Origin: Hysterium pulicare CBS 123377 | Taxonomy: Eukaryota > Ascomycota > Dothideomycetes > Hysteriales > Hysteriaceae | DNA: 46,235 nt | Direction of reading: 5' to 3' | Assembly (NCBI GenBank): GCA_000467715.1 | Contig: AJFK01000285.1 | Coordinates: 1-46,235 of the forward strand | Shown here: one piece after another, positions 8,783-40,065 of the stretch | Numbering within the stretch: the first letter of the stretch is position 1 | How the letters are laid out: each line of letters begins with the position of its first letter | Program-made: the position numbers and the translations under genes | The notes under the pieces: model-generated | What the model was told of the DNA's origin: nothing | The model's input: only the letters and a program-made list of their open reading frames with translations | The model's database searches: none

Positions 8783-8963
8783 CGAATGTGGAAACTTGGG
8801 CTCGAAAGAACTTGAAATTTTAGATTTATTTTCTGTGTCTGATACGCCAGAGTTGCGGGATATATGCAGTAATGAGTTTTACCTACCCAATCCCAATGAT
8901 TCAAACCCTGAACACCTGAAACTCCTTTTGAAAAGTGCTTGCCTTATCATCAAGCTCCGACTC

Positions 8964-16800: not shown

Positions 16801-17004
16801 AGTCTGAACCCATATGATGTTTCTAGAGTTTTGACGGAATCTCGGGACTAAAGTTTTGATACGCTCGACGTATCCGGACCGCGAGTCAACCGGAAGCTTG
16901 CCGTCTGGGCGGACGAAATCATTTTGCAATCCAATCACTAGCAACGCCTGATGGGTCTGAAAATGCGGTTGATTTTGAGAAATAAGATCCAAAAGCGACA
17001 TCAT
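13873..17004 (-). CDS. isochorismatase-fold / AlkB dioxygenase / GST-like fusion protein
   Basis: One exon, 1043 residues. Residues about 18-275 are an isochorismatase fold (ALLVIGLQNDF, YSAFNGTSL, YICGCITNVSV). Residues 276-540 are Ser/Lys/Pro-rich and probably disordered. Residues about 545-800 are an AlkB-type 2-oxoglutarate/Fe(II) dioxygenase with His679-Ser-Asp681, His750 and the Arg773/Arg779 pair expected to bind iron and 2-oxoglutarate; the LNHVLIQLYRSGQDFISEHS stretch resembles the ALKBH2/3 group that repairs alkylated bases. Residues about 840-1040 look like a glutathione S-transferase (VPILFTSNN, TVPVLLYL, PYIAGTRFSIGDCYTWP). In the first domain the Asp-Lys-Cys triad of cysteine hydrolases reads Asp29, Thr and Ser225, so it may not be a normal hydrolase. 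All AlkB ligands are kept. Confidence 0.9.
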   Translation of the reverse strand: MMSLLDLISQNQPHFQTHQALLVIGLQNDFVRPDGKLPVDSRSGYVERIKTLVPRFRQNSRNIIWVQTLFENERVVNDPSNEGDTIILEPLDGLDSASDDEGDELPKDLMTPVPASRSHRHKQRALDLLKRVSAMKRAPARSASLSPAEEDELFLSRASKKGPCCLPDTPGSEFAESVKSTIESASDTIVRTSHYSAFNGTSLLLVLRAKLVTEVYICGCITNVSVFATVLDAARHGIKINVLGDCLGYRKQARHDEALKKMVDYIEAQIVTSKELMQSFTTAPGTNEISHEETSNPDDKLNNLLDSLRIDDRATANDQSIYNSKRTEPPSNTVNGRQRTFSDTSAAESMATKSSADTMLSDEQFAEKLSLGARPTRPSQQPPAAKPNMVKSKIRMRSRSDKKKKDDKKENDIKPSTASSIKTATSSKAPVEAPLASPVKSPKKAVETVESPPRANAITKAESSDKLRESPSRQEQRLKSSISQPSLSSRNLVSEPKEKEKEKGTKTRLALGRPTKSDYSSTSKYTPPRTPTTNPPAPSTMSKKPQSLATFPVLGPNDKIAEGDSSIIYDLFRPDYRHPTDPKHELRDVIFQQLYNEVRWQKMFHVQGEVPRLVCVQGEFGPDGSMPVYRHPTDQALPLLHFTPKVQLIRRQAEKLVGHQLNHVLIQLYRSGQDFISEHSDKTLDIVRGSSIVNVSFGAQRTMRLRTKKSAKTDAPCDENAGSSRNTERVAMPHNSMFVLGEKSNMRWLHGIGADKRIDSERSEAERAYNGMRISLTFRHIGTFLDSDSRLIWGQGATSKDRSNAQDVINDEEDETEKIVRAFSKENHSTEFDWNEVYGAGFDVLHFRAPPEDVPILFTSNNTVENQQIAICLAELGLKHLVSEVPTREKDYELDRQVVYRDTNAEHTEVVSTVPVLLYLDRYHTLDRDDRGKEATAGSYDLLLNLTALRKYWVNRKVPSFRDDFISMLCTIEEKQALTPGPYIAGTRFSIGDCYTWPILDEIISEWDGWTQEKFPALTAYYQMLWKKRKSVGRLRSKLPKIA

Positions 17005-19736: not shown

Positions 19737-21211
19737 ATGTTCTCGCGAGCATTCCCTCGCTCCGCTTCGGGAGCATGTTCACGGTTTGCGCACTTCGAAA
19801 TGAATCCTAATGTCCAGACATTCGCCAAACTTCCCTCCAGAGCCCGCATACCAATTCAACATGGCACAAGGATACGAAAGCAGTCTACTTTTATCGGCGG
19901 AGTGAAAAAACTTCAAAAGGAAAGTCCAGTGCTATTTCCTCTAGCTTCATTATGGTAAATTTACTCAGACACCCTCAGGAGAGCAGAAACTGATTCAGGC
20001 AGTATACTCGCGGGCATGGGGTTCCTTCTATGGCTCCCCGTCTACTATCAGAAATTCATAATCGCACCATATCACAATTTTCCCGAGCCGGTTGCAAAGA
20101 AGTTACGCAAAGCAATATTTTACAGTTCGGGTAGTTATATGGACATACGAGAGGCGAACAAATACTACCGGCAGGGTTTACAAGTTGCGGAAGAGATGGG
20201 GATGGATCCATTCAGTGACGAGATACTTGGTGTCAAAATAGCCATTTCAGCTATGTTCGAGCATGCGAACCAATACCACCTGGCCACTGAAGTTCTAGAA
20301 ATCATGCGCCACGACTGTTTGAAATGGCTGGAATTATTTGGGGACAAGCATTGGACGGATGGGACGAGGACCAGAATCCTTTCGAGAGTGGTGGAATTCG
20401 ATGTCAAGCTAGGAGAGCTTTACATGTGCAAATATGTTGCAGAACCTGACAACGCAGAGAAACGATTGGTAGAGGCCGTTGAGATCATATTGAAGGAGAA
20501 GAAGAGACGGGAAGATGATGGCGTGCAGCCAGGAGAAGGCGATTGGATGTCAAATGAGCAGATTGGAGGCACACTGGAGTGTACGTTGTCTTGTCTCATG
20601 TTATGCATCACCTTCTCACCGTCTATCTTGTACAACCTACTCCGCGATGTGCAACAACTAACTGGAGTTTCAGCCCTTGGACATCATTACGAAGAAAATA
20701 GTTACCACTACCTTGCTACTCCGCTCTTTCTACAAGCACTGTCACTATGCCCTCCACAATCCTGCCATGGTGTTGTACTGAGTAAGTCATCACTCTGTCT
20801 CCTTGGACCATGAGAGCTTCGAGCATGGCTAACGCCAATATAATAGTGAATAACCTTTCCATATGTCTCGCCCAACAAAATCCACCTCCACCGCCTTCGA
20901 CTTCTCCGGCATCTTCAATCCCGAACCCTCCTCGAGCCATTTTGCTGGACCAAGCACGCCAATGGGCGGATAAGGCCCTTGCAAAAGCTGCCGCCATAGC
21001 ACCACCAGACCGGGACGAAGAGTGCGATATCGGATGCGCAACTGCAACGCATAATATTGGCGAATTCTTTGAGATGGAAGGCAAATTGCCGGAGGCACGG
21101 CAGAAATACGAAGAGGCAGCATCATTAGCCAAGGCGGTTGGCTTTTCGGAAGGAGAGGTCAACGCAAAGAGAGGGCTTAAGAGATTGAAGGTTCTCGAAA
21201 GAGCAAGATAA
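19737..21211 (+). CDS. mitochondrial TPR protein, MGR3-like
   Basis: Four exons, join(19737..19954, 20003..20580, 20674..20781, 20847..21211), give 422 residues. The N-terminus (MFSRAFPRSASGACSR) is basic and rich in Ser and Arg like a mitochondrial presequence. A single membrane span (ILAGMGFLLWLPVYY) follows at about residue 74. The rest is helical TPR repeats, e.g. EANKYYRQGLQVAEEMG, HYLATPLFLQALSL, NNLSICLAQQ and EARQKYEEAASLAKAVGF. This layout is that of fungal Mgr3 and its relatives, adaptors of the mitochondrial i-AAA protease. The family name is from memory of the layout, not a search; TTC19-like is the alternative. Confidence 0.8.
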
Positions 21212-22140
21212 TCGATATAAGTAGGTGAGCTCTGTAATATAATGTAACTGCCGATAGTAGGATATGTACAAATACTTGAGATGAAACCATAGAATACAGC
21301 TAAGCTAAGGCTGAGCCTATTATACGTATTTTTAACCTCTGTCTGCCATCGTTTTCTTTCTAGTCAATTATTGTGCCTCGTCAAATGAAGAAGTCATTTT
21401 TCTCCTATCCAGAACTGGACTCATCCCGAGACTAATCGGGTAATCAATCAATCAAGGGCATGCTTCTTTCACTAACAATCTTGAAGGATGCTTAAGAAAT
21501 GACTCCACCCTCTGAGCAAGACTTGTTCCGGAATAGTGCCAGAAGAATCAAATAAAATCTAACGTGCCATCCCCACTTCCAAGATCTTCGCTACCCTGCG
21601 GACATTCTTTCCACAACGACTCTTATTCTTTTTCTCTTGCTCTTTTCCTCTTGCTCTTGGTGTCCAGCAGTCATTCAATACTCACGATGGGCAAAAAATG
21701 GCTCATGTGTAGCACATGATGCGCTAGCTATAGTCCGCCCATTCCTAGTACTCAGGAGCTCATTACGCACACAAATTCTCTCGTCTTCACTATTGCTGTG
21801 TACTAGCTCTTTTCACCATCACAAAAGCTCGCAAGCGTATTCAATGGCTCACCTCCATCACAACACTCCTCTACTACCCCAAACCTTGACTCTATCCACA
21901 TCAGATGAGCGCCTAAGGATATATGAACACCCAGGAGCTCCTTCAGTACCCTTTTTTGGACACCCACGCCAACATATGGCGCCTCGAGCATGACTTATAG
22001 TCATCCGGAGCAGACATGGTAACGGGTCTATCTCCATTTTGTTCCACTCCAACTCCCATTAGTCTCAGTGGATTCCGCAATTATGCTCTGGAAGAGTCCA
22101 TTGAGCGTTTGAATGAGGTATGTTGATTGATCAACGTCTG
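21212..22140. other. gene-free left flank of the promoter-module array
   Basis: 3' flank of the TPR gene, then sequence without a recognisable gene. Leftward from the module at 22181 there are only short frames (38-60 codons). Confidence 0.35.
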
Positions 22141-22142
22141 AG

Positions 22143-22190
22143 TGTGTGAGGAGGAAGGAAATGAAATAGGGAGTTGGATGCTTTTATACA
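22143..22190 (-). promoter_or_regulatory. array module A: minus-strand TATA promoter-like element
   Basis: Read on the minus strand: TGTATAAAAG followed by a pyrimidine tract and CCTCACACACTC, the pattern shared by the array. TTACTAATCAG lies about 45 bp to the right, a degenerate form of the shared TGASTAA word. No second TATA box is seen. Confidence 0.45.
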
Positions 22191-22799
22191 CAAAAGGTCT
22201 GTGTCTTCTCACCTAGCAAGTAAGAAGTTACTAATCAGTACGTCGGTACCATTACGGCTTCTTGAACAAAATGTTTAATATCAGTTTCCTCAACTTTGTA
22301 AGGAGCACTTCAATGTGAGCCTATAGCAGCATGCGTTTCACCTTAATGATCATCATTAGGACCTTTCTCGGAAGCTCTACTCTTGCAGCAGCAAGAGCAT
22401 CCCACCAGAGCCTCTTTCATATCACCAGAGCTACTCAGCTGCTTCACCATGACTGGACTCTGTCATGAACATCGTCGCCACAGTGTGCATACAAAAACTC
22501 CAGACTATCGCCTAAATGATAGCGCGCTGTGATCCCCAGAAGCCCTCTCCCAGCCCATGCTGTGAAGCCATCGATTTGGTTTGGAGATAACCATCGCCCA
22601 CCAAGTACGCTTGTTTTGGACCCATACAGGGGAACAGCCATCACGCGGCTCTCGTCGCAAATATAGAGGTCCGGCTCCACAGTCCAACATAATCAGTTGC
22701 GCTTCTCTTTTCTCGTTCATAGGCAGTATGACAAGCAGAGCGAACCATTATGCGATTCCGAATCGTAATGTGGATTGCGGAGACCGTGGAGAGCGTGTG

Positions 22800-22960
22800 A
22801 GGAAAAAGAAGGGAAGGAGCCGGAAGAGCAGAAGATTTTATATTGTAGTGAGAGGGGAGAACTGCTCGTGTAACGTGAGTGGTCCCCAGACTCCTTCTAC
22901 CTAGGAACTGACTCACCCTCAACGGCCCTTCCTCCTCGTTGATATAAATACATCCTCTCC
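22800..22960. promoter_or_regulatory. array module B: divergent TATA pair
   Basis: Minus-strand TATAAAA at about 22837-22843 followed by a long pyrimidine tract and CCTCACACGC; plus-strand TATAAATA at 22943-22950. The boxes are about 105 bp apart and point outward. ACTGACTCACC (AP-1-like TGACTCA) lies between them. Confidence 0.55.
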
Positions 22961-23559
22961 CATCGTCTACGACCACCACACTCCTGGATATGATTGAAGC
23001 TCCAAACCCTTTTCTCGAACCTCCTGATGTCCACAACGATAAGCTCAGACATTCATGTGCTGGCTTCGCTTCAGCATCTCATATCCCAGCTTGAGATGCG
23101 CGTAGTTGCTTTGTGCGGTTCAGAACGTGTCGGAAACTTGGTCAATGTAACCAAACTCGCGGTGTAGCCGCACGCCATGGGTCGTGTGCGTTTGGAGTTT
23201 CAACAAATATGGAAGGCCAATCAGATGTCGCTGGAACAGATTGGCATGGTCAAGGCCAATAATGGGGTTTGGTGGTCGAGATTTCAGGAGGTAGCGAAGG
23301 CCGATCAATGGCGGCCGGACTATACTGGGCAATCATTTGGCGTGGTGTGTTGGGTGCTCTACTCCATCCTCATGTGTATAGTTTTTTTGACAGCAATTCG
23401 ATGGTGGATTTCACTACTTATCCTGCCATCGTAGGCCATCTCTAACGCTCGATGCCGGATTTCTTCACTCTCTGAAGCCCGGTGTGGCTTTGGAGCTTCA
23501 ATAATAGAGCCGGATCGTGACCGTTGCTGTTGCCTCTACTCAGTGCTCACGTGTGAGAA

Positions 23560-23640
23560 CTTCTGAGTAACTTTCGCCGACACTGCTTACTCATACGGTC
23601 TCTCCTTTCCTCCTGCTCACCTATAAATACAAGCCAATTC
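23560..23640 (+). promoter_or_regulatory. array module C: plus-strand TATA element
   Basis: TATAAATA at 23622-23629 preceded by a CT-rich stretch and, about 50 bp upstream, CTGAGTAACTT, again the TGASTAA word. The minus-strand box is not recognisable. Downstream, 23679-24008 is an open, Cys-rich frame without an ATG (CSLCGSPI, CICPDNGKKHC). Confidence 0.45.
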
Positions 23641-24324
23641 TCCCTCATACGAACACCACCGCGACTCAGCTTCCTTAATTGGAAGTTTGGGTTCCTTGCT
23701 TCCATGTCTTAAGCAGCATCTGCGGATCACAATGGAGAGACAAGGGACTCGATGGTTTCTGCTCTCTTTGTGGATCTCCGATCACCCATGAGGGCCAAAA
23801 GACTCGATGGCCTGGGCTGTTTTGGCTGGGAACCACGAGATGGTGTGGATCCCAAGTTCAAAGGTGCCTAGAAAAGGGATGCATATGTCCAGACAACGGC
23901 AAAAAGCATTGCTATGAAGAGTGTAGTGCTTGGCTTCCTCCCTTTGCATTTTTGCCTCGGATTGAAAACGTGGTACCGCTCTTCTTCATTCGTGAAAGCC
24001 CCCATTGATGCTTTTCTGCCAAAAGGTGTTCATCCTCCGGCCCAAATATCTAGCATGTTTGACTAGACTCAGGAGACTTTCTCTTTCACGATGCAGAGCT
24101 GTTCAATGGGTTTCAAGACGTTTTGAAACGATAATGATGATCACTGGCTCCAATGCGTGACAGTCAGTCATCAGTGTAGACTCTCCGTCGCTAACCTCGT
24201 TGAAGTTCCCCCCCCCCAATATCCACATTGGCAACAAGGGATTTTGAGTTCAAACACTCAGCCCAAATGAATCCCTACCAAATCACTACCAGAGTCCAAT
24301 CCACACCCATGATCCGGAGGTGAG

Positions 24325-24507
24325 CTAATAGTTTGGAGTCCGATGACCCCAGGATGTACCAGATAGGATATTCGGAGAAACACCAAGCATACATTGGTTA
24401 GGTAGTAAGGGGGGTCCAAACCCAGAGCAGCCATTAAGCTGAAATGAGATCCACTTTTGGTCACTCCGCCATATCGCAGCTTCATACTTGCGGTGCGATT
24501 GTAGCAT
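24325..24507 (-). CDS. candidate small ORF downstream of module D (minus side)
   Basis: 60 codons from ATG 24507, about 50 nt downstream of the minus-strand TATA box of module D and its CTTCTTTTCTTCCACAC tract. Starts MLQSHRKYEA. No domain is recognised. Kept only because its start sits where the array pattern predicts; a chance ORF is possible. Confidence 0.22.
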   Translation of the reverse strand: MLQSHRKYEAAIWRSDQKWISFQLNGCSGFGPPLLPNQCMLGVSPNILSGTSWGHRTPNY

Positions 24508-24519
24508 GAGCTGGCTTGT

Positions 24520-24650
24520 GTGGAAGAAAAGAAGTGAAAGTTGAAGAGAATAGTGGTTTATATAGACATAGGTAGGTCTCATTACGCACTGCCTCCCCGA
24601 AGCTGAGTAATCGAGTCCGAATTTCTCTCTCCTTGCATATATAAACCTCT
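24520..24650. promoter_or_regulatory. array module D: divergent TATA pair
   Basis: Minus-strand TATATAAA at about 24557-24564 followed by pyrimidines and CTTCCACAC; plus-strand TATATAAA at 24638-24645, about 80 bp away and pointing outward. GCTGAGTAATC (TGAGTAAT) lies between them. The same ten-base word GCTGAGTAAT occurs in module L. Confidence 0.6.
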
Positions 24651-25484
24651 TCAGATTCGCCTCTACACTCACTACGCACAGAACGCCATGATAGTGAGTG
24701 CAACAGGGTGATCATACCAGCTGGCAAACCCAGCACATGGGTTGGACTTTGTCCAAAATCTCAACCACTTTACTTACCATGTCTGCGCTCTCTGGTCCAG
24801 TCTTGGTCTACCTTCTTTTCATGGGGAAGTATGCAGCGAGCTGACGACCAAGTTTGAGATTGAATCCCCAGAACGCGTTATTAAAACGCTCCGCCGTTCG
24901 GCATTATGGGGCCAAAAATACGTCCACAGACTCCTCGATGGGACAGGGGATTTGGTTTGGGGGGTTTTGTGGGACATTGTCACTACATATTCTCTGGGAC
25001 GGTGATGGAACTTGGCCGTCCGTATGCATTGGGTCATATGGGTCGCTTGCCGTGCTATGAAGGTCCGAAGGAGCACGATAGGCTCCTTTAGTGACGAGAT
25101 TCCATGCAGAGGGGTTTCAAGAGGTACTGAAAGTCATCACCAACTTACTGATAGAATTGAATCTGAGCTGCTATCTTGCACCTCTCTATCTAGCCACAAC
25201 AGCCAACTCACATTGAGTTTCTGGAAATCCGTTTTTTGGACGCAGACCAAACATGAGCTGGTGCTGTGGCTAAGTCTTTTTCAGCTAATTCATCACGATG
25301 ACCAACTCACATAGAGGCTGTTGCTGTCAAGCTTGTTGTTGATCGACCCGAGTCACAAGCTGCCCATGCATTATGCCGCCTACACTTCTGGTTCAAACAC
25401 ATAGTGGTTCTTCCCTTCACTGTCTGACTTCCCAAGTAATGGAGCCAATTTGACGGTTGATCTAGAAAGTGCCAGATTTTGTCG

Positions 25485-25610
25485 TGGAAAAGGAGGAGTT
25501 GCAGAGTAGAAGGTGAGGATTTTATATCCGTGGTTCAGGTATGGCGGCATGTGCTAACTCATGACTAATCTGACTGAAATTCCTACGCCGTGCAAGCATA
25601 AGAGCCTCTC
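25485..25610. promoter_or_regulatory. array module E: minus TATA with decayed plus side
   Basis: Minus-strand ATATAAAATCC at about 25518-25527 followed by CTCCTCCTTTTCCACGAC. Between the two sides is CATGACTAATCTGACTG, which contains TGACTAAT. On the plus side only CATAAGAG at about 25600 stands at the expected TATA place. Confidence 0.5.
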
Positions 25611-25637
25611 TGCATTCTACTTCTAATCTGCACATAC

Positions 25638-25868
25638 ATGTTTAACCGCAGCGGAGGCTCAATATTCAAGTTTCAATCTCAGCATGGAGTTCTTGTTATG
25701 ATCATAGCAGCCGGGAATCTTAGCAATAAAAATACCAATTTGCGGCACTCGAATGGCTCTGCTGTGGGGAACTTCGGCTCGCCGCCGACATCAACTTATG
25801 GTGCCGGATTTGGGAGCCGTTTTGGGCTCATTACACGATATCCCACAAGCGAAAGGGATTGTCGGTAA
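25638..25868 (+). CDS. candidate small ORF downstream of module E (plus side)
   Basis: 76 codons from ATG 25638, about 35 nt after the expected plus-strand TATA position. Starts MFNRSGGSIFKFQSQHG; Asn/Gly/Ser-rich. No domain or signal peptide is recognised. A chance ORF is possible. Confidence 0.22.
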   Translation: MFNRSGGSIFKFQSQHGVLVMIIAAGNLSNKNTNLRHSNGSAVGNFGSPPTSTYGAGFGSRFGLITRYPTSERDCR

Positions 25869-26414
25869 TGGTGGTTGGAAGATTTTGGTAATTTGAATAA
25901 TTATGCAGAAGGACCACTCGATGACAATGGCTGGTAAGAGGAAGTACTGCTTCTCCTGAATGGATCACTGTTGCTTTTCTTACGGAGTGGGTTCAGCGGT
26001 TGAACGCGCTCCTATTCAGCATATTGGATTGCCAACGAACTACTCCATCACATAGCCGAAATTACCGCATCCTGTGTTCCAAACGATCGCCAACGACAAT
26101 ATGTGGCTGCTACACTATGTTCCACTCCCAAAACTTCCGCTCCAGACCGACATTTTGTTTGCTGGTTTTCCGGCGTTGAAAAGGCCACCAGGCTCCCAAC
26201 TGCTCCAGACATGGGCAGTAGTTGCATCTAGACGTGAGAGTTGTCTGCAAACTTGCTCCGAGCAGCAAACATTTAAATGTACGGGTTCGTAGATTGAACT
26301 CTGCGCTCGCGCCCTAGACTAGACCGGACATTGATCACAGTCGGATAGGTTTATGATCTCCGCTCCGCTCCATTCCGGACGTGTCGCCAATGCGTTGATC
26401 CAAATGTGTTGGCC

Positions 26415-26500
26415 CTTGTGAGGAAGAAGAAGAAATAGAAGGTGTTTAATACTTTGAGAAGTGGTCAGGGGCACGTGACTCGGCCGGCTTCGTAAGTCAC
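26415..26500 (-). promoter_or_regulatory. array module F: weak minus-strand element
   Basis: Read on the minus strand: AGTATTAAACACC then a pyrimidine tract (CTTCTATTTCTTC) and TTCCTCACAAGG. The tract and start-like motif fit the array consensus, but the TATA box is poor. CGTAAGTCACTGAC lies to the right. Confidence 0.3.
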
Positions 26501-27214
26501 TGACAGGTTCTGACTAAGCCTTGAGGTATTTTGTTTTAAGAGCATGACTACTTTTTTTAATTTTCTCTCAGAGTCATTATGGAACAGGCTGCTGCTGTGA
26601 TCTACTCCAAAAACATGCCAACATATGCTACGGAGCAGTGGTCGCTGAAAGTTCAGCATTGCGGATACTGGACACGGATGAAAAGTGGGGATCCTGGAAT
26701 TTTGATTCCCTCGTAGCTCTTCATTCAAGGATTCAGCGAACATGAAGTGCTGAACGTCTTCATTAGCTTGCCTTCTGGCACAATAATGGCGAAGCCAACG
26801 GATGGCCGTCTTCCAAACGAACATCTCACGTAGAGCTTCAGTATCAAGCATCCTTGATACTCTTCAGCCTCTGAGGCCCGTTTTACATTCAGGATTGCAC
26901 ATATAGTTCCCAAAGCCCTATCTCCGCGACCCATTATAGATTCTGTTCAGGGATTTTCGGATCAAGTGCAGGAGGTTTCAAAGTCATGAAATGCCATAAA
27001 CTCCTCAAGTGATCCAGAACGAGCGGATCCACCATTATCGAAATTTGATGCACATATGTGATCTGACACATTCCTGCGATCAAACATCCACTGTTCGAGG
27101 CACAAAGGGCTGTAATGGAGCTAATGTCCACCCCTCTCTATCTCCCATAGACTGTGAGGACGCACTATTGTGATGCAACCAGACCCTGAAATTGTGGTGT
27201 AGTGCTCAACAAGG

Positions 27215-27320
27215 GCTTGAGGGCTATTATATAGCTTGCAGAAGGACTCAGAGGAGCGCGTACCCGCTGCTCCCTAACGATTAGTCATTCCCCAATCTCT
27301 CGTCTATAAAGGCCTCGAGG
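27215..27320. promoter_or_regulatory. array module G: divergent TATA pair
   Basis: Minus-strand GCTATATAATAGCC at about 27233-27245 and plus-strand TATAAA at 27305-27310, about 65-75 bp apart and pointing outward. CGATTAGTCATTCC lies between them; its reverse reading contains TGACTAAT. The pyrimidine tract on the minus side is weaker than in other modules. Confidence 0.5.
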
Positions 27321-27389
27321 ATTCAACTCCAGAACCTCACACCATTGGATTTCTCTGGCTGGACTAAGCTGCAAGTACAGACCAGTTGA

Positions 27390-27800
27390 ATGTCCGCCTG
27401 GCTTTGTTTTTGCCGTAAGCACCATTCCTTCGCGACCTATGCTGGACTTGGAGTCTTCTTTCAAACTTCTTGTCACATTCTCGTTATGGCTGTTTGCTGG
27501 CTCCTTCCTCAATTGCTACGAAATGCAAACATGGAATTTGGAGTTATCGAAACTGAAGATCAGCGTGTTGCCATGGCTAAGTTTCAAAACACAAACCAGA
27601 CTCTCGACATGGCTGTGCTCCAAATTGCCAAAAACAGACTCCTTGATGCGGGGGTTCAAAAGGAGAATCTTAGCCTCCGGATGGGAGTTGGGATTTCTTC
27701 AAAAATGATCCATCCGCACCTCATGGGAGTTGGGAGTTCTCCAGAACAAGCTGAATCCCTTCAACTATGGCCTGGGTGTGGACTTGGTGTCCGAGAGTGA
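27390..27800 (+). CDS. candidate small gene downstream of module G (136 aa)
   Basis: The longest ATG frame clearly tied to an array promoter: 136 codons starting 80 nt after the plus-strand TATA box. It starts MSAWLCFCRKHHSFATYAGL. A hydrophobic stretch (HILVMAVCWLLPQLL) at about residues 29-43 could be a membrane span or an internal signal. A short internal duplication (RMGVGISS / LMGVGSSP) lies near the end. No known family is recognised. Length and position argue for a real gene; the lack of any homology in memory argues for caution. Confidence 0.35.
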   Translation: MSAWLCFCRKHHSFATYAGLGVFFQTSCHILVMAVCWLLPQLLRNANMEFGVIETEDQRVAMAKFQNTNQTLDMAVLQIAKNRLLDAGVQKENLSLRMGVGISSKMIHPHLMGVGSSPEQAESLQLWPGCGLGVRE

Positions 27801-28194
27801 GTGACTCGTTGTGGCGAGATTGTGATTAGAATGTGGTATGAATAACAATGCTGTTGTTCAGTAGCCCGACTTTCTTTCTGCGTGCGAGCGGTGCATCCTA
27901 GAAAGAGCAGGAGGAATCGCTAGTCCCTCAATCATGCTCATCATCTGCGTGACCGCTCTTCGTTCCTTGTACTACAATCCCTGACCTCGTCCGCTCATCG
28001 ACTTCCGCCTCCAACCCCCTTTGCCTCACGCTGCTGATTTGCAACGGACAAGTCTGCCCCGCTCATTGTAATCTTTTGTTGTTGTTGGTGAACACAGTTC
28101 ACATGGCACAGCGTGTGTCATTCACTTTAGTCTATGCTCTCGGGCTTGCGGCAGACGCCACACCCTCCGCATGTCATGGATCGACTCGTCCATT

Positions 28195-28308
28195 CTAGTG
28201 CTCAAACTCCCAAACCATGATTTGGCGGAGGCGCATATTTAGGAGCTGACTTCCACTTTCAGAAACCACATGTGCCAGGAGGTCGTTGGCTTGTTGCTCC
28301 CAAAGCAT
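28195..28308 (-). CDS. candidate micro-ORF downstream of module H (minus side)
   Basis: 37 codons from ATG 28308, about 50 nt after the minus-strand TATA box of module H and just behind TTTTCCTCACTCACAGC. Starts MLWEQQANDLLAHVV. Too short to judge by content; listed because of its position. Confidence 0.18.
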   Translation of the reverse strand: MLWEQQANDLLAHVVSESGSQLLNMRLRQIMVWEFEH

Positions 28309-28314
28309 TGGATG

Positions 28315-28445
28315 CTGTGAGTGAGGAAAAGAGAGTGGATGGGGTAACAGCAGTGGATTTTATACCCGGCTCCTGACCTTACTTGCTAGGCTCGGTCACG
28401 GAGATCGTCCATTCCGAGTCTCATTTCGTCTATATAAACACTTTG
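28315..28445. promoter_or_regulatory. array module H: divergent TATA pair
   Basis: Minus-strand GTATAAAATCC at about 28357-28365 followed by pyrimidines and CTCTTTTCCTCACTCAC; plus-strand TATATAAA at 28431-28438, about 70 bp apart. This is the cleanest pair of boxes, but the central TGASTAA word is not clear (CTGACCTTACTT only). Confidence 0.58.
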
Positions 28446-29183
28446 AGGAGCAGCACTGAAGAGACACACCACCTTCCTTGGTTCAATCTCCGGGAAGCGA
28501 CTACGGCTTCAGCAAGCAAGCAATTCACCGATAGTTGCTTGTGGATATGGTAGCCTTTCCAACATTGAATGCCGAAGAAGCTACATGCGATACAAATTAG
28601 CAAGCTTCCACGTCCATGTGTTGCGGGAACTTCCAATCTGGCGTCTAATGAGCACATATGTGGACGTGGATTTATTCAAATTGACTACTTTCCCTTTGCA
28701 TGGGAAATCTAGAACATTGAGTCTATTTTGTTCCTGATTCGAGGCACCAACTTGTCAGCATGTCTACAGTCATGTGCTGTCGAGTGTTTGGGTGGAGGAA
28801 ATGGCGGAGTTTCACAACAGGCCGTGGTCGCCCCCGATAAGAGCACTGGCAGATGGGGCCATATTCTGGTCATTCAATCACAATAGAGGAGGATGATAAA
28901 CTCCTTTACCGACAAGTAGTGGCTTTGAGCGGTGTTCACATAGATACTGATGGTAACTACGGCTTAAAGCGCTGGAGCTTGAGCTTGTGTAACTAAGCCA
29001 CGTCACTGAAGCGTCTTAACCCCACGCACCGCGACTCCGCACATTATGGAAGGTGGTGCTACGTTTCGGTCCCACCATGGCGGATGGAGTTGTGGTAGTT
29101 GAGTGGCCGCCGAAAACCTTGCTAATCAACCAGTCCATTCCACCAGCAGGACTAGCCGGCCAGCCATTCCCATCTCCCCCCAC

Positions 29184-29453
29184 TCAAACTAAGCTTCTAG
29201 CAGACAGAGAAGAGACAGCATAGAAGATCTCTGCTATCCTTGCTGAAGCTCCACCCAGCCATTGACTATTTCGATCGAAGGGGATGGTAGGCATATGCAT
29301 AGTCGGCGTCAGGTCTTTAACACTTGCCACGCCACCAACCATGAGCTCAGGGCTCTCAACGTTTTGGCCACTGGCCCGCCACGAGAGACACAGCCATGCA
29401 GCAGCGAGCCTTTTGATCCATGAATGTAGCAAACAAACATTCTTAGACTGCAT
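29184..29453 (-). CDS. candidate small ORF downstream of module I (minus side, 89 aa)
   Basis: 89 codons from ATG 29453, about 120 nt downstream of the minus-strand TATA box at 29572. Starts MQSKNVCLLHSWIKRLAAAW; no domain recognised. The first 25 residues are basic and hydrophobic and could form a weak targeting helix. A chance ORF is possible. Confidence 0.25.
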   Translation of the reverse strand: MQSKNVCLLHSWIKRLAAAWLCLSWRASGQNVESPELMVGGVASVKDLTPTMHMPTIPFDRNSQWLGGASARIAEIFYAVSSLSARSLV

Positions 29454-29524
29454 CAGATTTGTTTAGTGCTGAGTCCAATAGTTGGTTGATAGTGAGTTTG
29501 TGCTGTGACACTCCTGAAGGAAGA

Positions 29525-29585
29525 GGCTCTGTGTGTGTGTGTGGAAAAGAAGAATCGGGAGAGGGAGCGAGTTATATAGCTTCTA
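29525..29585 (-). promoter_or_regulatory. array module I: minus-strand TATA element
   Basis: Minus-strand GCTATATAACTCGC at about 29570-29580 followed by a pyrimidine tract, CTTCTTTTCCACACACAC and a short GT/CA run. No plus-strand box or clear TGASTAA word on its right side. Confidence 0.45.
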
Positions 29586-30244
29586 GGGGGCTGGGCGTTC
29601 GGTGGAATGAATATTCCGGGCTTTCCTATTGAAGATTTTAAGAATAGAGCCAGGGTCAGTGGACTTCTTCCCACTACTAAACGCATTGTGGTTTGAACAG
29701 TGGCGGCGAAGCGGCTGCGGCGGAGGACACTCCAAACAGTGATGACTCCGCAAACCCATGGGAGGAAGCCAGGAGAGTCTAACACTTTCAGATTGAGTCA
29801 TCGTTGTTTATTCATGCTCGTTGAATGCGAATCATCTTTACCGGTAGCATGTGCATTTGCCAACCTGCAAGAAGAAGCTGTAGTAGTGGTATTCACAATA
29901 AGCAAAACCACGCAGACCGACATTCTCGCCCAAGTCTAGCCTACTCCGCAGGTGCCAGGCCACATGACCAAGGAGAATGCGAAAGACACATTAATGACCA
30001 TCATCAAAAGCAGTTGGTCGAGCCTATGTTCAACCAAAAGCTTTTTAGAAGCAGCAGCAGACACCATCAGAAGAACGAGGCGTCTCTGAATACATGCTCG
30101 TGGTCCTTCGTCCGATTTGGTTCACCATTCGAACTGCTCTGTGTAAATTGTGGTTTCCACAGCGTCCCAACAACATGATGACGAACGACACCTATCAGCG
30201 ATCCATTACACATTTTGGTGCATCTAGTTGGCGCTCTGAACGAA

Positions 30245-30375
30245 CATCAAAGTATGAGTGTAGAAGAGAAGAGCAAAATAGCGTGAGGTCGAGAGATTTA
30301 TATGCATGTAGAGAGAATGAAGTTTAGAGCTGACTAAGACCCCAGGTCCTTGGCCCCAACGAATATAAATACATC
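30245..30375. promoter_or_regulatory. array module J: divergent TATA pair
   Basis: Minus-strand CATATAAATCTC at about 30296-30304 followed by CTCTTCTCTTCTACACTC; plus-strand TATAAATA at 30364-30371, about 67 bp away. GCTGACTAAGACC (TGACTAA) lies between them. The plus box context ATATAAATACATCCTC is the same as in module B. Confidence 0.58.
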
Positions 30376-30464
30376 CTCGTCGGCAGCCAAACTCCACTTC
30401 TTTTCCTCACAGAACTTCCTCGAGGGAGGGCCGGGGACACAACAAGGGTCCTCGTTCTGCCTCT

Positions 30465-30731
30465 ATGGTGGTTGGCTCATTTTACAGTTGCGGCAAAGTA
30501 ATGTGTCCATCTACAGAGGACACCAGCACCTATGTGGATCTGGATCTTCTTGTCGAAACAACCCCAAACACAAGACATCATGTCTGCCGGATGCGTCTCA
30601 GACACCCTGGTTATGTGTGGTGGGGTGCGGTTGGAGCTTTGGTGACTAGAACACATCAAGCATTTCCATCAATGGCTTGGGGTGCGGTGGGGCGTTGTGA
30701 TTGGATCTTTATAATCAGACTTCATCACTGA
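30465..30731 (+). CDS. candidate small ORF downstream of module J (plus side, 88 aa)
   Basis: 88 codons from ATG 30465, about 95 nt after the plus-strand TATA box of module J. Starts MVVGSFYSCGKVMC. Its 3' half lies inside a local direct repeat (30623-30803). No known domain; a chance ORF is possible. Confidence 0.25.
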   Translation: MVVGSFYSCGKVMCPSTEDTSTYVDLDLLVETTPNTRHHVCRMRLRHPGYVWWGAVGALVTRTHQAFPSMAWGAVGRCDWIFIIRLHH

Positions 30732-30803
30732 TTTCGGTGGTGCGGTTGGGTCTTCCGTGACTAGAAATCATCAAGGCTTCCCATCAATGGAGTTGGGTTT
30801 GCG
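30623..30803. repeat. two direct copies of a ~65-bp unit
   Basis: Copy 1 at about 30623-30686 and copy 2 at about 30738-30803. Both start GGTGCGGTTGG, continue through GTGACTAGAA and CATCAAG, then CCATCAATGG, and end in a GTGCGG or TTGCGG word. Spacing is about 115 bp. A local tandem duplication now diverged by roughly a fifth. Confidence 0.7.
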
Positions 30804-31464
30804 GAAGTTGAGTTCGCGGACGTTGGGTGCATATGGGCTGCTTTGGACGCTTCAACGACTCCAGAACGAGATGATGGTGCTGCTCGGTAGCCAGAGCCGG
30901 CATCGTAGATTCTTGAAGGTTTGTGGTGGTGTTTATTAGATCCCTTTAAGTCTCCAGCAATGTTAGGGTAAGGCGCGAGCTCTTTCAGCCGTAATTGCAG
31001 TGATGATGAACAACAGCGTACGCTCACTGTGTCCCCCTGCACCCACACTACCCCATGGAAACAGACAGATGAACGTGGTATTGCATCCACAGCTAAGTTC
31101 GAGTCCGAGCCAGTTACTTTAACTGAGCAGTGAGCACAAAACCCTCCACAGGACCATGCGCTGAGGTAGTATGCATTTGAAACCACACATGGCGCCGTGC
31201 GAAGACGATTCTTGAACACTCCAGGCATGCTGTAGCCTCTTTCCATGAGTTGGCAAACTCCCAGACAAAACCATGAGATGGTGGAGAAAATTCGTATGTT
31301 CCGACCATCATTTCTTTCCACAATGGTAGTTACCAGGGAGACATAGGAATGCAAACAGGGGATTCATGATAAGGTCTCCTCGAATTGTTTTGAAAAGCGA
31401 GTCCAGTCTCCATAACCCGTGTCCATCGTCCTATTTGGCACGCTCGATCCTCGCGAGAGGTCGA

Positions 31465-31630
31465 GTGGATACCGGTGTAAGGAAAGAAAAGGAAAAAGAG
31501 AAGCAACACCGGGCACCACGAAAGAATTTTTATACCCATATACCGGAGGCCGGACCGTCTCCAATCCACTCCTAACTCCCACGTGCTTGAGCCCATAACC
31601 CCCCTTCCTCCTAGCCTATTTAAAACCCCT
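31465..31630. promoter_or_regulatory. array module K: divergent TATA pair
   Basis: Minus-strand GTATAAAAATTC at about 31525-31535 followed by an extended pyrimidine tract and TTCCTTACACC; plus-strand TATTTAAAA at 31617-31625, about 90 bp away. A CACGTG E-box-like word lies between them instead of TGASTAA. Confidence 0.5.
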
Positions 31631-31664
31631 CCCCTCCCCCTTCAAACTCTCACTCACCTCCTTA

Positions 31665-31916
31665 ATGGAATTTCCCCATGGAAAGAAAGAGGAAGCGGAA
31701 TCAAATTTCCGCGATTTCACTCCCGATGCTTCTTTCTCCAAACTAGCCTTTCACTCAGTAGCTATGTGTGGCTGGTGTAGCTGTTCTGGTGATCTTCAGA
31801 ACCAAAATGGAACAGCTCTCTCCATGGCTGGAAGACAGATTCGGGATAAGAGATGGCTTATGAGACGTGTGGGTCTTTTAGGTCGGAAACGTGTACACAA
31901 AGACACCTTTGTCTAG
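31665..31916 (+). CDS. candidate small ORF downstream of module K (plus side, 83 aa)
   Basis: 83 codons from ATG 31665, only 40 nt after the plus-strand TATA-like box and just behind a strong CT-rich leader ending in CTCACCTCCTTA. Starts MEFPHGKKEEAESNFRDF; carries a MCGWCSC motif and a basic C-terminal part. No family recognised. Start context and spacing are good for a fungal gene. Confidence 0.3.
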   Translation: MEFPHGKKEEAESNFRDFTPDASFSKLAFHSVAMCGWCSCSGDLQNQNGTALSMAGRQIRDKRWLMRRVGLLGRKRVHKDTFV

Positions 31917-32214
31917 AGTGAAGATCTTTGGCTTTTGAAGTGATTTTAGGCTGACTGCAAGAATTACGGTCAACCTACTACAACGGAAGGTCTTGAATGA
32001 GAGGAGGATGGACGGGAGAAAGGAAGCATAATGGGCTAAGCCAATGTCTCCACCTGGATCCGTGGACTAGGTGTGTTGAATGATGATCTTCTTCAACAGC
32101 AGTGGCTGCAGTCGATGGGGGTGGAAAGGAAGGCAGTGGTATTGGGACGTAAGTACGGCGAGCGAAGATGATCAGTGCTGGAGTTTTGCCAATGAGTCGC
32201 ATAAGGCTGTTTTT

Positions 32215-32415
32215 TTAGCATACATTGGCGAAGCAATCTTTGTGATGCTCGACCCTCTCGTGGAAGAATGTAGGACAATATTTTGGTCCACATGGGGCTC
32301 TAACACACCACCCCGCCCACACCATAGTTTGATGAGCTTTCCGTTCTGGAATCCAGCTCCCAACCAGCATAGGCATGGCGGTAAAGTGTTTGTGGCGCTC
32401 AAATCCAAGACGCAT
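32215..32415 (-). CDS. candidate small Cys/His-rich ORF downstream of module L (66 aa)
   Basis: 66 codons from ATG 32415, about 95 nt after the minus-strand TATA box of module L. Starts MRLGFERHKHFTAM. Its second half has five Cys and several His (WCVRAPCGPKYC, then HHKDCFANVC), which could bind a metal ion. The Cys-rich frame next to module C has a loosely similar composition. No family recognised. Confidence 0.28.
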   Translation of the reverse strand: MRLGFERHKHFTAMPMLVGSWIPERKAHQTMVWAGWCVRAPCGPKYCPTFFHERVEHHKDCFANVC

Positions 32416-32464
32416 AGCAGCGTAGACTTTGCGAATCTGGGATGCGGGAATTGTATTGCAGAGA

Positions 32465-32610
32465 GTGAGCAAGTGTAGAGGAGAAGTTAGAGCAATGAGA
32501 AAGGAGACTTTTATATCGAGTCTGCTGAGCAAGGTCCTCACGTGTTGGATGGACTCTCCAGGGGCTGAGTAATCCTTTCGAAGTCCTTCCTCGAGAAAGT
32601 ATATGAATCC
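32465..32610. promoter_or_regulatory. array module L: divergent TATA pair
   Basis: Minus-strand GATATAAAAGTC at about 32507-32517 followed by pyrimidines and CTTCTCCTCTACACTTGC; plus-strand TATATGAA at 32600-32607, about 90 bp away. GCTGAGTAATCC between them is the same word as in module D. Confidence 0.55.
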
Positions 32611-33424
32611 CTCATAGTGCTGCACTTTCTGCTCTTTTCCACACATACAAAGAGGCAGCCTAACCTAGGCCTGACATGGACGATCAAAACGTCCCATTGA
32701 TCACAACAATACAAATTTGGCGGGATGAGATACCATGGCCGGTCAAGCGTATTGGTTCTCTAGAAGCATGTTGGAACACATCCACCATTCGTATCTGGCG
32801 ATTCTAAAACACAGCTCCTCCATCCAAGAAATGGACTCGGTGTGTTCAAGCGGGCTAGTTCCTTAGAAGCATGCGAGGCTCGGGGTGGTTGGCTTTAAAA
32901 GCTTAACCAAAATGCTGACAAACAGATGTTGATGTGCTGGAGATCGTTGGAAAGGCTTTGACGATTTCGAATTAGCCCAATCCAACACCGTCATGTCTCT
33001 TGTCTTTCTTTAGGGTGCTGCGGCATTGGCTTGACATTGCTGGGAGCTGTTCCACAGAAGAGAAGGAGTGCCTTCGATGGGGTTTGCCAAATCCGTGTAC
33101 GAGAGTCATGGGCGTTGTGGTGGAGGCGTTTTTCTGCTTTAGGAGGTCGTGATGAAGGCCATGACAATTCTCTCCATCCACTCACTTTGGATTAGACCAG
33201 GCCTAAGAGCTGGCATTGGTGGGTGTTGATCAGGACTTTCTCGCGCTCTCTTAATGTAGACTTAAAGTTGAACAGTGCATCTCATTGACCTACCCACGAA
33301 CACGCAACCACCATGTCCTATAAGTTGAAGTCCTGTTGATACACCAACCGACACGCATCCATGCTTAGGCATACCTCTTTAAAGCTCCTCATCGCTTGGT
33401 GCTCGTGTTATTATGCCATACTCA

Positions 33425-33515
33425 AGGAACTCAATGGAGTGTAGAGGATAGAAAGGACGACAAGAGGTCCATGGAGGTATTTATATTTGGATATGTCATT
33501 ATGGAGTAACCGAGT
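33425..33515 (-). promoter_or_regulatory. array module M: minus-strand TATA element
   Basis: Minus-strand AAATATAAATACC at about 33478-33490 followed by pyrimidines and ATCCTCTACACTCC. GGAGTAACCG to its right resembles the central word. No second TATA box. This is the last module I can recognise. Confidence 0.45.
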
Positions 33516-34097
33516 TGGCCTCGATGAAAGGCGAGCTTTTGTGGGAATGTTGAGGGAATACTATTTCATGTTTCTGTGTCCCAAGCCAAGACCGCCGGCC
33601 TTCTCCTAGTAAAAGCTTGTACGTGATAGATGGCTCGTGCTTTCATCTAAGAATCCTTGAGATTACTCACGCCCATGCATCCTGTAGAGAGACCGCGTCG
33701 TTGCATGGAGATGTCAGTGGAGGACTCGGTCGGTCGATCTTATTGAAAAGGACATAATACGTTGTTGCATAATTCGTGATCACGTATCAAAGCACTTGGA
33801 GTAGAGAGCGCCACGATTCGAGAATATTTTCTCATTCTAGTAATTGGGGACCATACATAATGTTTATTATAACCAAGCTCCATCCCTTCCATACCAACCA
33901 GAACCCATAAACACCAGTGGAGCAAACCGAAGTAACATGAAGGGGCGAGTTGGGTTTAATGAAGGACAGACGGTGTAAGTGTACTTCGATGATAGCTGTT
34001 TTGCCTATCGCAACCATAGTCGAACGTCTACAGTATCTGGGAAGTATCGAAAAACATCTTCAAGCGTCGGATGTCTAAGTTGTTGCAAATGCAACTT
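33516..34097. other. gene-free right flank of the array
   Basis: No gene, TATA pair or repeat is recognised between the last module and the stop codon of the next gene. Confidence 0.35.
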
Positions 34098-35313
34098 CTA
34101 AAGGATTTGGACACCATTGCCTTGTTGAGCTTGAGCAAGGAACTTGCCAATGGCAGGTCCCATGATAGCCCAGAACTCCAAGGCAAGGACGTGCATCATG
34201 ACGAAGAGAACGGTGGTCATGATCAGGAAGATCTTGAGGTAGAGCTTGATGAGTCTACGCCTGGCCTCCCAGTTGAAGGTGCGCCAAGCCTCGACGAAGC
34301 CAACAGCACCGGTACCGCCAAGGACCTTTGGTACGACTTTGCCGCTGAAAGTGCGGTCGAATGGAACGATGGTCTCATCTTCTTCGGGAAGGATGGACGC
34401 CTCGACACGAACAAGGGTCACAGTGGCCGGAAGCACGATGAAGAGAGCGCACCAGAGAGCGAAGACCGTGACAGAGAAGAGGCGGAGACCGAGAGAGCAC
34501 CATTCCTTGCGTGTGTAATGAGCCAAGTCGTCATTAGAGATTGCGTCAAGCTTGATGAGCTGGATGAAGCCCATGCCAAGGTAGGCAGAGACATAGCCCG
34601 CGGAAGCCTTGACAGCAGCGGGGACGTAGAGTTGCTTCCAGCTTGCCATGGCGGGAACGCGCTTGTAAAATCGCTTGTTTGAAGGCATGGAGATGACAGT
34701 ATGTGTCCAAGCTGCATGGAGACGGGAAAGAAGAACGCCTGAGATGGCCGAGATCACGACGAGACGTCCGGGAATACGTGGGATAACGTGATCGAAGAAG
34801 TTTGTAGTGATGCCCATCGAAAAAGTGTACACGATGAACACAGCTAGTCCACGCCATCGGGAGGATCTGCCAGCTTGAGTGGTCAAATGGTGAAGGGTTC
34901 CTCGGATCTTGGAGGTGATGGGCTTCTGATGGACGAGGGTGATGGTTGGGCCAGATTCGAGCAGACCATCCTTCTCGAGAGGGGCATCTGGATCTTCGGA
35001 GTCGGCGGCGGAGACGGTGATAGCGGCAGAAGGTGTCTCAACCATGGCAAGGGTTGCAACGACATCTTTGAGGGTGTACTCGATCTGATCACTCTTAGTC
35101 AGTCTTGATTCAAGCGGGCATGGCGAATAATGCTCGGTCACTTACGGAGCTAAGTACGACGATGAAGGTGATGAAAGTGAACACCATGATGGCAACGCCC
35201 CATGATGGCACCTCTACCTTCTCCGGGCCACTTCCAACTACACGCTTGTAGAGTCCACCAGCAGAAGCATGTTCCAAGCCGCGGCGAACAGCGTGGCCGA
35301 CGTATCCGACCAT
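34098..35313 (-). CDS. conserved multi-pass membrane protein, function unknown
   Basis: Two exons on the minus strand, 35146..35313 and 34098..35084, give 384 residues. The first exon (MVGYVGHAVRRGLEHASAGG) ends in a first membrane span, WGVAIMVFTFITFIVVL. After an acidic loop there are about five more spans: LAVFIVYTFSMGITTNFF, LVVISAISGVLLSRL, a weaker one near VPAAVKASAGYVSAYLG, FSVTVFALWCALFIVLP, and FLIMTTVLFVMMHVLAL. I recognise it only as the kind of conserved single-copy membrane protein seen in ascomycetes and cannot name a family. Codon use and C-rich third positions suggest a well-expressed gene. The alternative start upstream of 35313 lies in a pyrimidine-rich leader and is not used. 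Confidence 0.85.
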
Positions 35314-38852: not shown

Positions 38853-40065
38853 ATGATCATTCCCGACGCTCTCAAGACACTTGCGGGTCGTCTCGAAACT
38901 TTCTTGACCGCCCATCAGTTGGTGAAGCGACGACCCTCAGCGACCCGAAAGAAGGCAGCCCCAGCTACTATCTCATGGCCACATGAGACGCCCACAGCAG
39001 AAGAAGTAAGCGCATCTTGCTTCCCTCCTTCCCTCCTTCCCTCCAGTTTTCGGCTTCGGTACTGACACTCATGCAGCTTGCTTTCGCCGGCTTTTACTAC
39101 AAACCGAGCGCCACAAATCCCGATAACGTTGCCTGCTTTGTTTGCAATGCCCAACTCGACGGCTGGGACCCGGCCGATAACCCAGCGTTCGAGCACCTTA
39201 CCCACGCACCAGATTGTGGTTTCGCCATCAATACTTGCATTCGTCTTCGCAACGGCGATCCAAACCGCGTCGAAGACGACCCGATGAGTGAACGCATGGT
39301 CGAAGCTCGCAGGGCTACCTTCCTTGACAGCTGGCCACACGAAGACAAGAAGGGTTGGAAGTGCAAGATACAGAAGGTACACAGAACCCAACCCCTCCTA
39401 CACTGGCTGTGACTAACTTTCGGTAGATGGTTGAAGCTGGCTGGTACTACGATCCAAGCCCAGAATATGACGATGGAGTCACCTGTGCCTATTGCGGCCT
39501 ATCTCTAGACGGCTGGGAACCGAAAGACGACCCATTGAAAGAGCACAAGAAACGCACCTCTGACTGTTACTTTTTTACACTACGCGACACCTATACCATT
39601 GCGAGGGAATTGAAGAGAGTGAGCAAAGCCTCCAGACCATCTACAACCAAGCAGAAGCCAGAAAAGAGAGCCACCCGAACGTCTACTACCCGAACATCTA
39701 CCAACAAACAGAAGCCGGAAAAGAGGCTCGCGCGTGCATCTAAGGTCTCGAAAGCATCACAAGGCACCAAGCGAAGCCGGGATTCCGATGAAGAGAATAT
39801 GCCTCCTGCCACACCACCGCAAAAGAGGATTAAGTGGAGTTCTGTGGATATCGACGCTGTTTTGGGGGCTGACCCCGTCAAGCCCTGGTCTAAATCTCAG
39901 CTCACAGGTCCTGAAAAGGACATGACGGTCCAAGAGCTCATTGTGCATAGCGCGGAGTTGGCTCAGGAAGAGCTACGTAGGAATTGTGAGCGTATGGCAG
40001 CGGTGTTTGAAATGGAGGGAGCTAGAGCACTCCAAGCCCTCGAGGCTATTGAATGCATTGATTAG
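38853..40065 (+). CDS. BIR1: Bir1/survivin-like protein with two BIR domains (short form)
   Basis: Three exons, join(38853..39005, 39077..39376, 39427..40065), give 363 residues. BIR 1 (about 12-110) has CFVCNAQLDGWDPADNPAFE with the following H and C ligands; BIR 2 (about 130-185) has CAYCGLSLDGWEPKDDPLKE with HKKRTSDC. Both keep the Cx2C..H..C zinc set. A basic Lys/Arg/Ser/Thr linker follows, and the C-terminus (TVQELIVHSAELAQEELRRN onward) is a helix like that at the end of fungal Bir1, which joins the chromosomal passenger complex with INCENP and Aurora. Many fungal Bir1 proteins are far longer because of the middle linker, so this is a compact version. Intron 1 contains a CTTCC/CCTT microsatellite at 39020-39045. 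Confidence 0.9.

Follow-up and report, generated by a model that had tools for sequence, protein, structure and literature searches.

In a 46,235-nt stretch of DNA from Hysterium pulicare CBS 123377 (contig AJFK01000285.1; hereafter the window), about 13 promoter modules, mostly divergent, follow one another along 12.9 kb between two convergent gene ends (21212-34090). The modules, labeled A to M in Table 1, repeat a common promoter grammar at even spacing; the DNA between them is nearly devoid of coding signal, shows a strand polarity downstream of the promoters, and is depleted in CpG. From these patterns we infer transcription, factor binding, methylation, selection, and function. The reading that we advance, tentatively, is that of a co-regulated array of some 13 mostly bidirectional modules which would be read by RNA polymerase II (Pol II) into short noncoding RNAs with unconstrained bodies, in a domain that was possibly once methylated. 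The analysis covers this one window as sequence only, and the 33.4 kb of flanking DNA in the same window served as the internal control for the array statistics.

Table 1. Features of the array and their coordinates in the window
Feature	Position	Strand	Description
Array domain	21212..34090	.	gene-poor, CpG-depleted, between two convergent gene ends (from open reading frames, period-3, CpG)
Module A	22142..22300	.	strong minus core, TATA 22183-22188; TTACTAATC word 22228; no clear plus TATA
Module B	22798..22985	.	minus TATA 22837, TGACTCA 22909, plus TATA 22943
Module C	23490..23665	.	CACGTG 23548, TGAGTAA 23564, TTACTCA 23587, plus TATA 23622; no clear minus TATA
Module D	24520..24690	.	minus TATA 24557, TGAGTAATC 24604, plus TATA 24638
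Module E	25485..25645	.	minus TATA 25521, TGACTAATC 25562; no clear plus TATA
Module F	26418..26580	.	weak minus box TATTAAA near 26445, CACGTG 26472, TGACTAA 26511; no clear plus TATA
Module G	27190..27345	.	minus TATA 27228, TTAGTCA 27281, plus TATA 27305
Module H	28322..28475	.	minus TATA 28359, plus TATA 28431; no bZIP word; 13-mer in common with A at 28378-28390
Module I	29540..29690	.	minus TATA 29573 only; no bZIP word
Module J	30255..30415	.	minus TATA 30297, TGACTAA 30331, plus TATA 30364
Module K	31480..31655	.	minus TATA 31529, CACGTG 31580, degenerate plus box TATTTAAA 31617; no bZIP word
Module L	32475..32650	.	minus TATA 32510, CACGTG 32539, TGAGTAATC 32566, degenerate plus box TATATGAA 32600
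Module M	33445..33580	.	minus TATA 33480, weak GGAGTAAC word; no clear plus TATA
136-aa first-ATG open reading frame	27390..27800	+	downstream of module G plus core; without Pfam family

Promoter grammar and spacing of the modules

A first-pass annotation of this DNA had pointed to a recurring divergent promoter layout, and had staked that claim on TATA pairs being commoner than in shuffled sequence. Scoring as a strict divergent pair a minus-strand TATAWA followed 50 to 130 bp on by a plus-strand TATAWA, we found six pairs in the array, located in five modules (B, D twice, G, H, and J), where 300 dinucleotide shuffles gave 0.06 ± 0.26; the left flank has two (0.14 expected) and the right flank one (0.05 expected). 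The layout withstands this comparison. Pairs had been claimed for seven modules. Those in B, D, G, H, and J are strict, whereas K and L qualify only with loose boxes because their plus boxes are degenerate. Two outward cores within about 150 bp, that is, a bidirectional layout, are thus strict in five modules and looser in two, while A, C, E, F, I, and M show a single clear core each. Single TATA boxes are not what distinguishes the array, since TATAWA is enriched both there (26 versus 6.2 expected) and in the left flank (37 versus 12.4).

What does set the array apart is the full core. We devised, once the modules had been seen, a rule demanding TATAWA, at least 60% pyrimidine at +10 to +45, and an initiator of the form C[AT]CAC, CTACAC, CCACAC, or TTACAC; this post hoc rule picks out 13 array sites, 10 on the minus and 3 on the plus strand, and none in the 33.4 kb of flanks, with a mean of 0.12 and a maximum of 2 in 200 runs of Markov-2 sequence. 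The sites fall in 10 modules (A, B twice, D twice, G, H, I, J twice, K, L, and M), leaving C, E, and F without one. When the initiator is dropped the contrast shrinks, to 12 versus 5 or 15 versus 10 sites in array versus flanks. Pyrimidine tracts are generally purer on the minus arms (0.63-0.89) than on the plus arms (0.46-0.86).

The modules are evenly spaced, as the first reading had described: with centers placed by eye, the 12 intervals average 941 bp with a coefficient of variation (CV) of 0.21, which was matched in none of 20,000 uniform placements. If only the 12 minus boxes are counted, which leaves a gap at C, the CV is 0.29.

A second layer of the grammar is a word of the basic leucine zipper (bZIP) type, TGASTAA, whose factor we take to be Yap1/Pap1-like. 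Its bare enrichment is modest: the array holds nine copies versus 3.2 expected (reached in 3 of 300 shuffles), the right flank seven versus 2.6 (7 of 300), and TGASTCA is not enriched in the array at all (2 versus 2.9 expected). Placement is far more telling. Eight of the nine TGASTAA sites lie inside modules (C twice, D, E, F, G, J, and L, hence seven modules) where 0.37 would be expected, and so do all four CACGTG E-boxes of the array (0.16 expected); module area in this test was 1,177 bp, modules with one box being given 105-110 bp. The first-pass annotation had listed the word in B, C, D, E, G, J, and L. Its placement in modules holds, with B carrying TGACTCA, but the overall enrichment is only moderate and F had been overlooked. 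H, I, K, and M have no exact bZIP word. The longer form TGASTAATC occurs five times in the array (four inside modules) and never in the flanks.

The bZIP word also keeps its distance from the plus TATA box, lying 34, 35, 36, 33, and 34 bp upstream in B, C, D, J, and L, respectively. Among the other plus cores, G has a distance of 24, H and K lack the word, and C has a second site at 58. The 33-36 bp phase therefore holds for five of eight plus cores, or five of the six that have a site, which for six uniform sites has P = 6.5e-5 (the nearest site being taken in C). Six of the eight TGASTAA sites in modules share one orientation. Descent and function would explain this recurring orientation and phase equally well.

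Besides the bZIP word, an exact 13-mer, CCTAGCAAGTAAG, occurs in module A at 22212 (+) and, inverted, in module H at 28390 (-), and is a candidate site for a second factor.

Coding signal, homology, and composition between the modules

In the 351-nt windows used (108 in number), period-3 averages 1.01 in the array, versus 1.02 in Markov sequence and 2.38 and 2.11 in the two flanks, and no array window exceeds 4. For the best of the first three ATG open reading frames (ORFs) in each of 20 arms (1,118 codons), the codon score is -0.055, versus -0.054 ± 0.011 for random sequence. In a control with each gene held out when scored, 11 of 12 flank genes reach -0.003 to 0.086; the model thus recognizes 11 of the 12, the remaining gene (34101-35100) scoring -0.117, under random. 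A Pfam scan of ten frames from the array (one had no start codon) gave no family above cut-off, self-tblastn detected no ORF-level similarity among the arms, and a strict intron is found in only 1 of 26 arms. The absence of ordinary genes, as first proposed, is borne out by period-3, codon score, and Pfam, though with local exceptions downstream of G on the plus strand (G+), of K on the minus strand (K-), and at 29.25-30.0 kb. The last of these, at 29251-30001 around module I, has the strongest period-3 in the array, two 501-nt windows giving 3.8 and 3.6, and no matching long ORF was identified there.

That the bodies between modules are not conserved, another early claim, agrees with the comparisons made. 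Self-blastn of the bodies stays at Markov level save for one 60-nt pair at 30624/30739; tandem repeats in the array are never longer than 32 bp; no copies alignable along a unit, the mark of a transposon or tandem-repeat array, were found; and k-mers reveal no common register among arms, the 8-mer excess at equal register being small and inconsistent (25 versus 20.2, 22 versus 17.7, and 27 versus 40.4). Smith-Waterman comparison of 313 arm pairs, run with gap costs that were too soft, gave 94.5 for sense-sense versus 91.2 for sense-antisense (p = 0.006) with equal maxima (153 and 153), and G-skew can explain this slight shift. The approaches also included a repeat search and a MAFFT alignment of the 12 minus arms. 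Rfam returned no match at the gathering score in the whole window and none at E up to 1 in the array, and hairpins are not in excess (8 versus 9.0 expected).

Two local features of the bodies stand on their own. The 60-nt pair forms a local duplication (30624-30798; 80% identity, 115 bp apart) and is the sole array repeat clearly above chance. Palindromes of the form TTTCA-N6..8-TGAAA lie at 24111, 25115, and 26976, near the middle of three convergent intervals and in related contexts; they are absent from the rest of the window, and 0.33 would be expected in the array, the find being post hoc.

The bodies share a polarity. Of 20 promoters, 18 have more G than C on the sense strand at +80 to +380 from the TATA box, counting 7 of the 8 plus and 11 of the 12 minus arms (p = 0.0004, randomization and sign test). 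GG exceeds CC downstream at 18 of 20 promoters, with the reverse at one, and TpG exceeds CpA at 15 of 20, with the reverse at two. The polarity spans about +100 to +550 and is reversed at +600 to +850, the position of the facing arm. Such asymmetry usually arises from deamination or repair that favors one strand while a region is transcribed, so we take the polarity as an indirect sign of long use, and its footprint suggests a transcript length of about 0.45-0.5 kb. Facing promoters are 0.5-1.1 kb apart and the polarity ends near mid-interval, so that facing transcripts may not overlap.

CpG is depleted across the same domain. Its observed/expected ratio is 0.69 in the array, compared with 0.93 in flank DNA within annotated ORFs and 0.91 in the rest of the flanks (p = 1.7e-6), and CpA (1.21) and TpG (1.20) exceed their flank values of 1.05-1.09, with no rise in TpA. 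The difference persists against the 21 flank blocks without coding signal, both for CpG (0.70 versus 0.92, p = 9e-5) and for CpA/TpG (1.21 versus 1.12, p = 0.003). Eighteen consecutive 1.5-kb windows (starts 20251 to 33001) have a CpG ratio of at most 0.83, a block about as wide as the array. Within it, module centers have lost CpG (0.61) without a gain in CpA or TpG (0.92 and 1.03), whereas the bodies combine CpG at 0.72 with CpA at 1.29 and TpG at 1.24. GC content is 0.479, versus 0.459-0.498 in the flanks. The signature of repeat-induced point mutation (RIP), which raises TpA/ApT and lowers (CpA+TpG)/(ApC+GpT), is absent: the first index is 0.66 in the array and 0.64-0.78 in the flanks, and the second is 1.35 versus 1.16-1.28.

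A possible noncoding-RNA locus and its alternatives

The grammar shared by the modules, with a word and TATA boxes in set places and bodies without homology, upholds the idea of the first-pass annotation that control elements are conserved while the bodies diverge. As products it had offered small genes or RNAs. RNAs seem likely, but small protein genes are mostly unsupported by period-3 (1.01 versus 1.02) and codon score (-0.055 versus -0.054).

In the array of noncoding-RNA promoters that we tentatively propose, a shared bZIP factor, joined in four modules by an E-box factor, would open the module centers, and each module would fire short outward transcripts of about 0.45-0.5 kb which run head-on into those of its neighbors and meet near mid-interval. 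The transcripts would be noncoding but for perhaps one or two; their sequence could drift freely while selection maintained the promoters, and the output would be transcription itself or small RNAs from facing pairs. Methylation of CpG across the domain in the germ line could then account for the loss of CpG with gain of TpG and CpA, a scar of the kind that CpG methylation leaves, according to portions of a published account (PMC13297926). We favor transcription or small RNAs as the output on the logic of two known systems, namely, convergent transcription in Neurospora and the pairing of a conserved motif with a free product in 21U-RNA loci.

Several observations weigh against this proposal. 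Nearly half of the modules (6 of 13) are not plainly bidirectional, since A, E, F, I, and M lack a plus box or have only a weak one and C has no minus box. The G>C sign weakens to 18 of 26 over the half-territories of all 26 arms, pyrimidine-rich start included. RNA folding of the arms is not significant. Five of 23 flank windows also have CpG at or below 0.83 (7501-9001, 39001, and 39751), and CpG-directed methylation is described mainly for Basidiomycota, ascomycetes using DIM-2/RID, in the same portions of PMC13297926. Finally, there are hints of coding. First-ATG ORFs average 39.9 aa versus 24.0-27.6 (p = 0.01-0.03); period-3 is at least 2.5 in 3 of 50 windows of 501 nt (27501, 29251, and 29501; maximum 3.8), where 0.85 would be expected at a Markov rate of 1.7%; and the 136-aa G+ ORF and a 161-aa K- ORF have period-3 values of 3.07 (p = 0.006) and 2.51 (p = 0.011). 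These last p-values were computed against unconditioned Markov sequence, which favors any long open frame, and are inflated because long stop-free frames are always somewhat periodic. Some start-like words are sense-biased (CATGTCT 7:0, ATGGCTG 9:0; also TGGGAG 13:0), and a start-codon-like motif, YCCATGNCT, scores 40-46 at width 10 versus 27-31 in shuffles (four each). Wider motifs score 60 versus 50-60 (width 16) and 82-95 versus 70-82 (width 24), and the start-codon-like motif led to no protein or RNA family. A comparison of sense and antisense motifs was discarded, as the two sets are reverse complements.

These hints fit an alternative that we consider unlikely, in which the array is a group of small protein genes, young and evolving fast (orphans or effector-like), with strong shared promoters and products both too short and too new for a codon or period-3 signal. 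Beyond the raised ORF lengths and the sense bias of start-like words, it could claim the first-ATG ORFs of 136, 89, 88, and 83 aa (G+, I-, J+, and K+) that begin 15-87 nt from the predicted start, and the period-3 of the G+ ORF. Yet the mean period-3 and pooled codon score are at random level, six of 20 strong arms have a first-ATG ORF under 10 aa, ORFs of different arms show no similarity, the ten frames scanned have no Pfam family, introns are as rare as noted, and the G+ p-value is the inflated one just described. Given the period-3 and ORF exceptions, a small protein may be encoded in one or two arms, while most do not look coding. The 501-nt window at 27501 falls over the 136-aa ORF of module G, which is the strongest candidate for a genuine small protein.

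A bolder version of the noncoding proposal is rather improbable in our view. It would make the modules stress- or stage-tuned two-way mini-genes, with the bZIP site set about 34 bp from TATA. Their facing transcripts would yield dual-strand RNA from sequence that can change freely, and the mini-genes would direct CpG methylation to their own locus, with a scar of about the array's width as the result. The array would then correspond, in a fungus, to a dedicated cluster of small-RNA genes, a parallel to which we give the same low credence.

It is more doubtful still that the array is a decayed tandem gene array, in which an old unit was duplicated, its genes died and drifted, and the promoters are relics. 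The common orientation of six of eight TGASTAA sites, the E-box preceding the bZIP word in a B-like order, the one 60-nt repeat, and the three palindromes in related contexts (found post hoc) would suit such descent. Passive decay, however, should not keep promoters far better than bodies; the opposite is expected, and the bodies show neither homology nor register, nor is there a RIP signature.

A chromatin or chromosome-structure element (centromere-like, a boundary, or an open domain), kept transcribed or nucleosome-free by its promoters with the RNAs as by-products, has little probability. The array resembles the short regional centromeres of Zymoseptoria tritici in being single-copy, mostly nonrepetitive DNA of similar size (5.57-13.55 kb there) with a sharp change in composition (PMC4589918), and its CpG block matches the array in width. 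Of these likenesses to the centromeres, size alone really fits: in the excerpts of PMC4589918 available, the centromeres consist of unique sequence with no common motif and contain expressed genes, whereas the array has hardly any coding signal and a repeated promoter grammar that such an element would not be expected to have. That the array is foreign or chimeric, CpG-poor DNA inserted from some other organism, is very improbable, for although the CpG ratio is sharply unlike both flanks, GC content is flank-like and both polarity and CpG scar track the promoters within the array.

Among the known systems close to the proposed noncoding-RNA array are the 21U-RNA (type I piRNA) clusters of Caenorhabditis elegans, where many small autonomous Pol II units lie in one domain, each with a motif conserved upstream and a product that evolves fast; the units number more than 10,000, their core motif has 8 nt, and their precursors are about 28 nt long, according to parts of PMC3597512. 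The analogy is functional only, as the array is fungal and consists of 13 TATA/bZIP modules, mostly two-way, whose arms measure about 0.5 kb. At the loci of dicer-independent small interfering RNAs (disiRNAs) in Neurospora, convergent transcription triggers DNA methylation (disiRNA loci DNA methylation, DLDM), which is linked with small RNAs and enriched at promoters (PMC3764098, in the portions available). The array has facing promoters and, judged from composition, a methylation-like scar (CpG 0.69, CpA/TpG about 1.2). In contrast to it, the same portions of PMC3764098 describe disiRNAs as arising in gene-rich DNA, with frq as an example of such a locus, and report most cytosines as methylated in methylated clones, unlike a CpG-only scar. 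Long noncoding RNAs (lncRNAs) of Neurospora likewise include transcripts upstream of and opposite to genes. As far as the available text of PMC3951366 goes, however, the divergent ones partner an annotated gene (355 within 1 kb, 95% of them >500 bp). The Zymoseptoria lncRNA catalogue nowhere uses the words bidirectional, divergent, or promoter, and the available parts of these Neurospora and Zymoseptoria accounts describe no gene-less promoter array. Nor is such an array described among the matches listed in our search of titles and abstract openings of the open-licence literature, and the array may represent a type of noncoding-RNA locus that has yet to be described.

Were the array transcribed as its sequence suggests, it would be a fungal locus where selection maintains about 13 co-regulated promoters and not their products. 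It would become testable whether convergent noncoding transcription alone builds and maintains a methylated domain, and whether fungi evolved small-RNA mini-gene clusters like those of nematodes. Gene-poor fungal DNA that gene finders pass over can be highly organized.

Neighboring genes and flanks

The first-pass coordinates were correct, although the domain, at about 21.2-34.1 kb, is slightly wider than noted. Both neighbors point into it: on the left, a plus-strand gene (ORF 20016-20810) without a Pfam family, presumably TPR-like, and on the right, a minus-strand gene for a membrane-like protein, also without a Pfam family. Among ten flank proteins, Pfam matched Tam41/Mmp37, SRAP, BIR, cytochrome P450, NmrA, and isochorismatase plus 2OG-Fe(II) oxygenase. 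Together with the gene density, these families point to fungal DNA, most probably that of a filamentous ascomycete. A search of viral contigs for relatives, with two proteins of the window, found none.

Three tandem ORFs at 842-6838 (+) share the motif WWxxNGKxFRLxxLPxELRxCI; we assume them to be 2EXR/F-box-like, although Pfam gave no family for the two of the three that were scanned. Matches of up to 267 bits in a self-search of 1-12879 are attributed to these ORFs. At 13873-17004 (-), an isochorismatase domain and an AlkB-type 2OG-Fe(II) oxygenase domain, as assigned by Pfam, are fused in a single ORF of 1043 aa, whose C-terminal part we take to be glutathione transferase-like. An ORF at 39427-40062 (+) encodes a BIR domain of the inhibitor-of-apoptosis type, and a low-CpG stretch without CpA or TpG gain overlaps and follows it.

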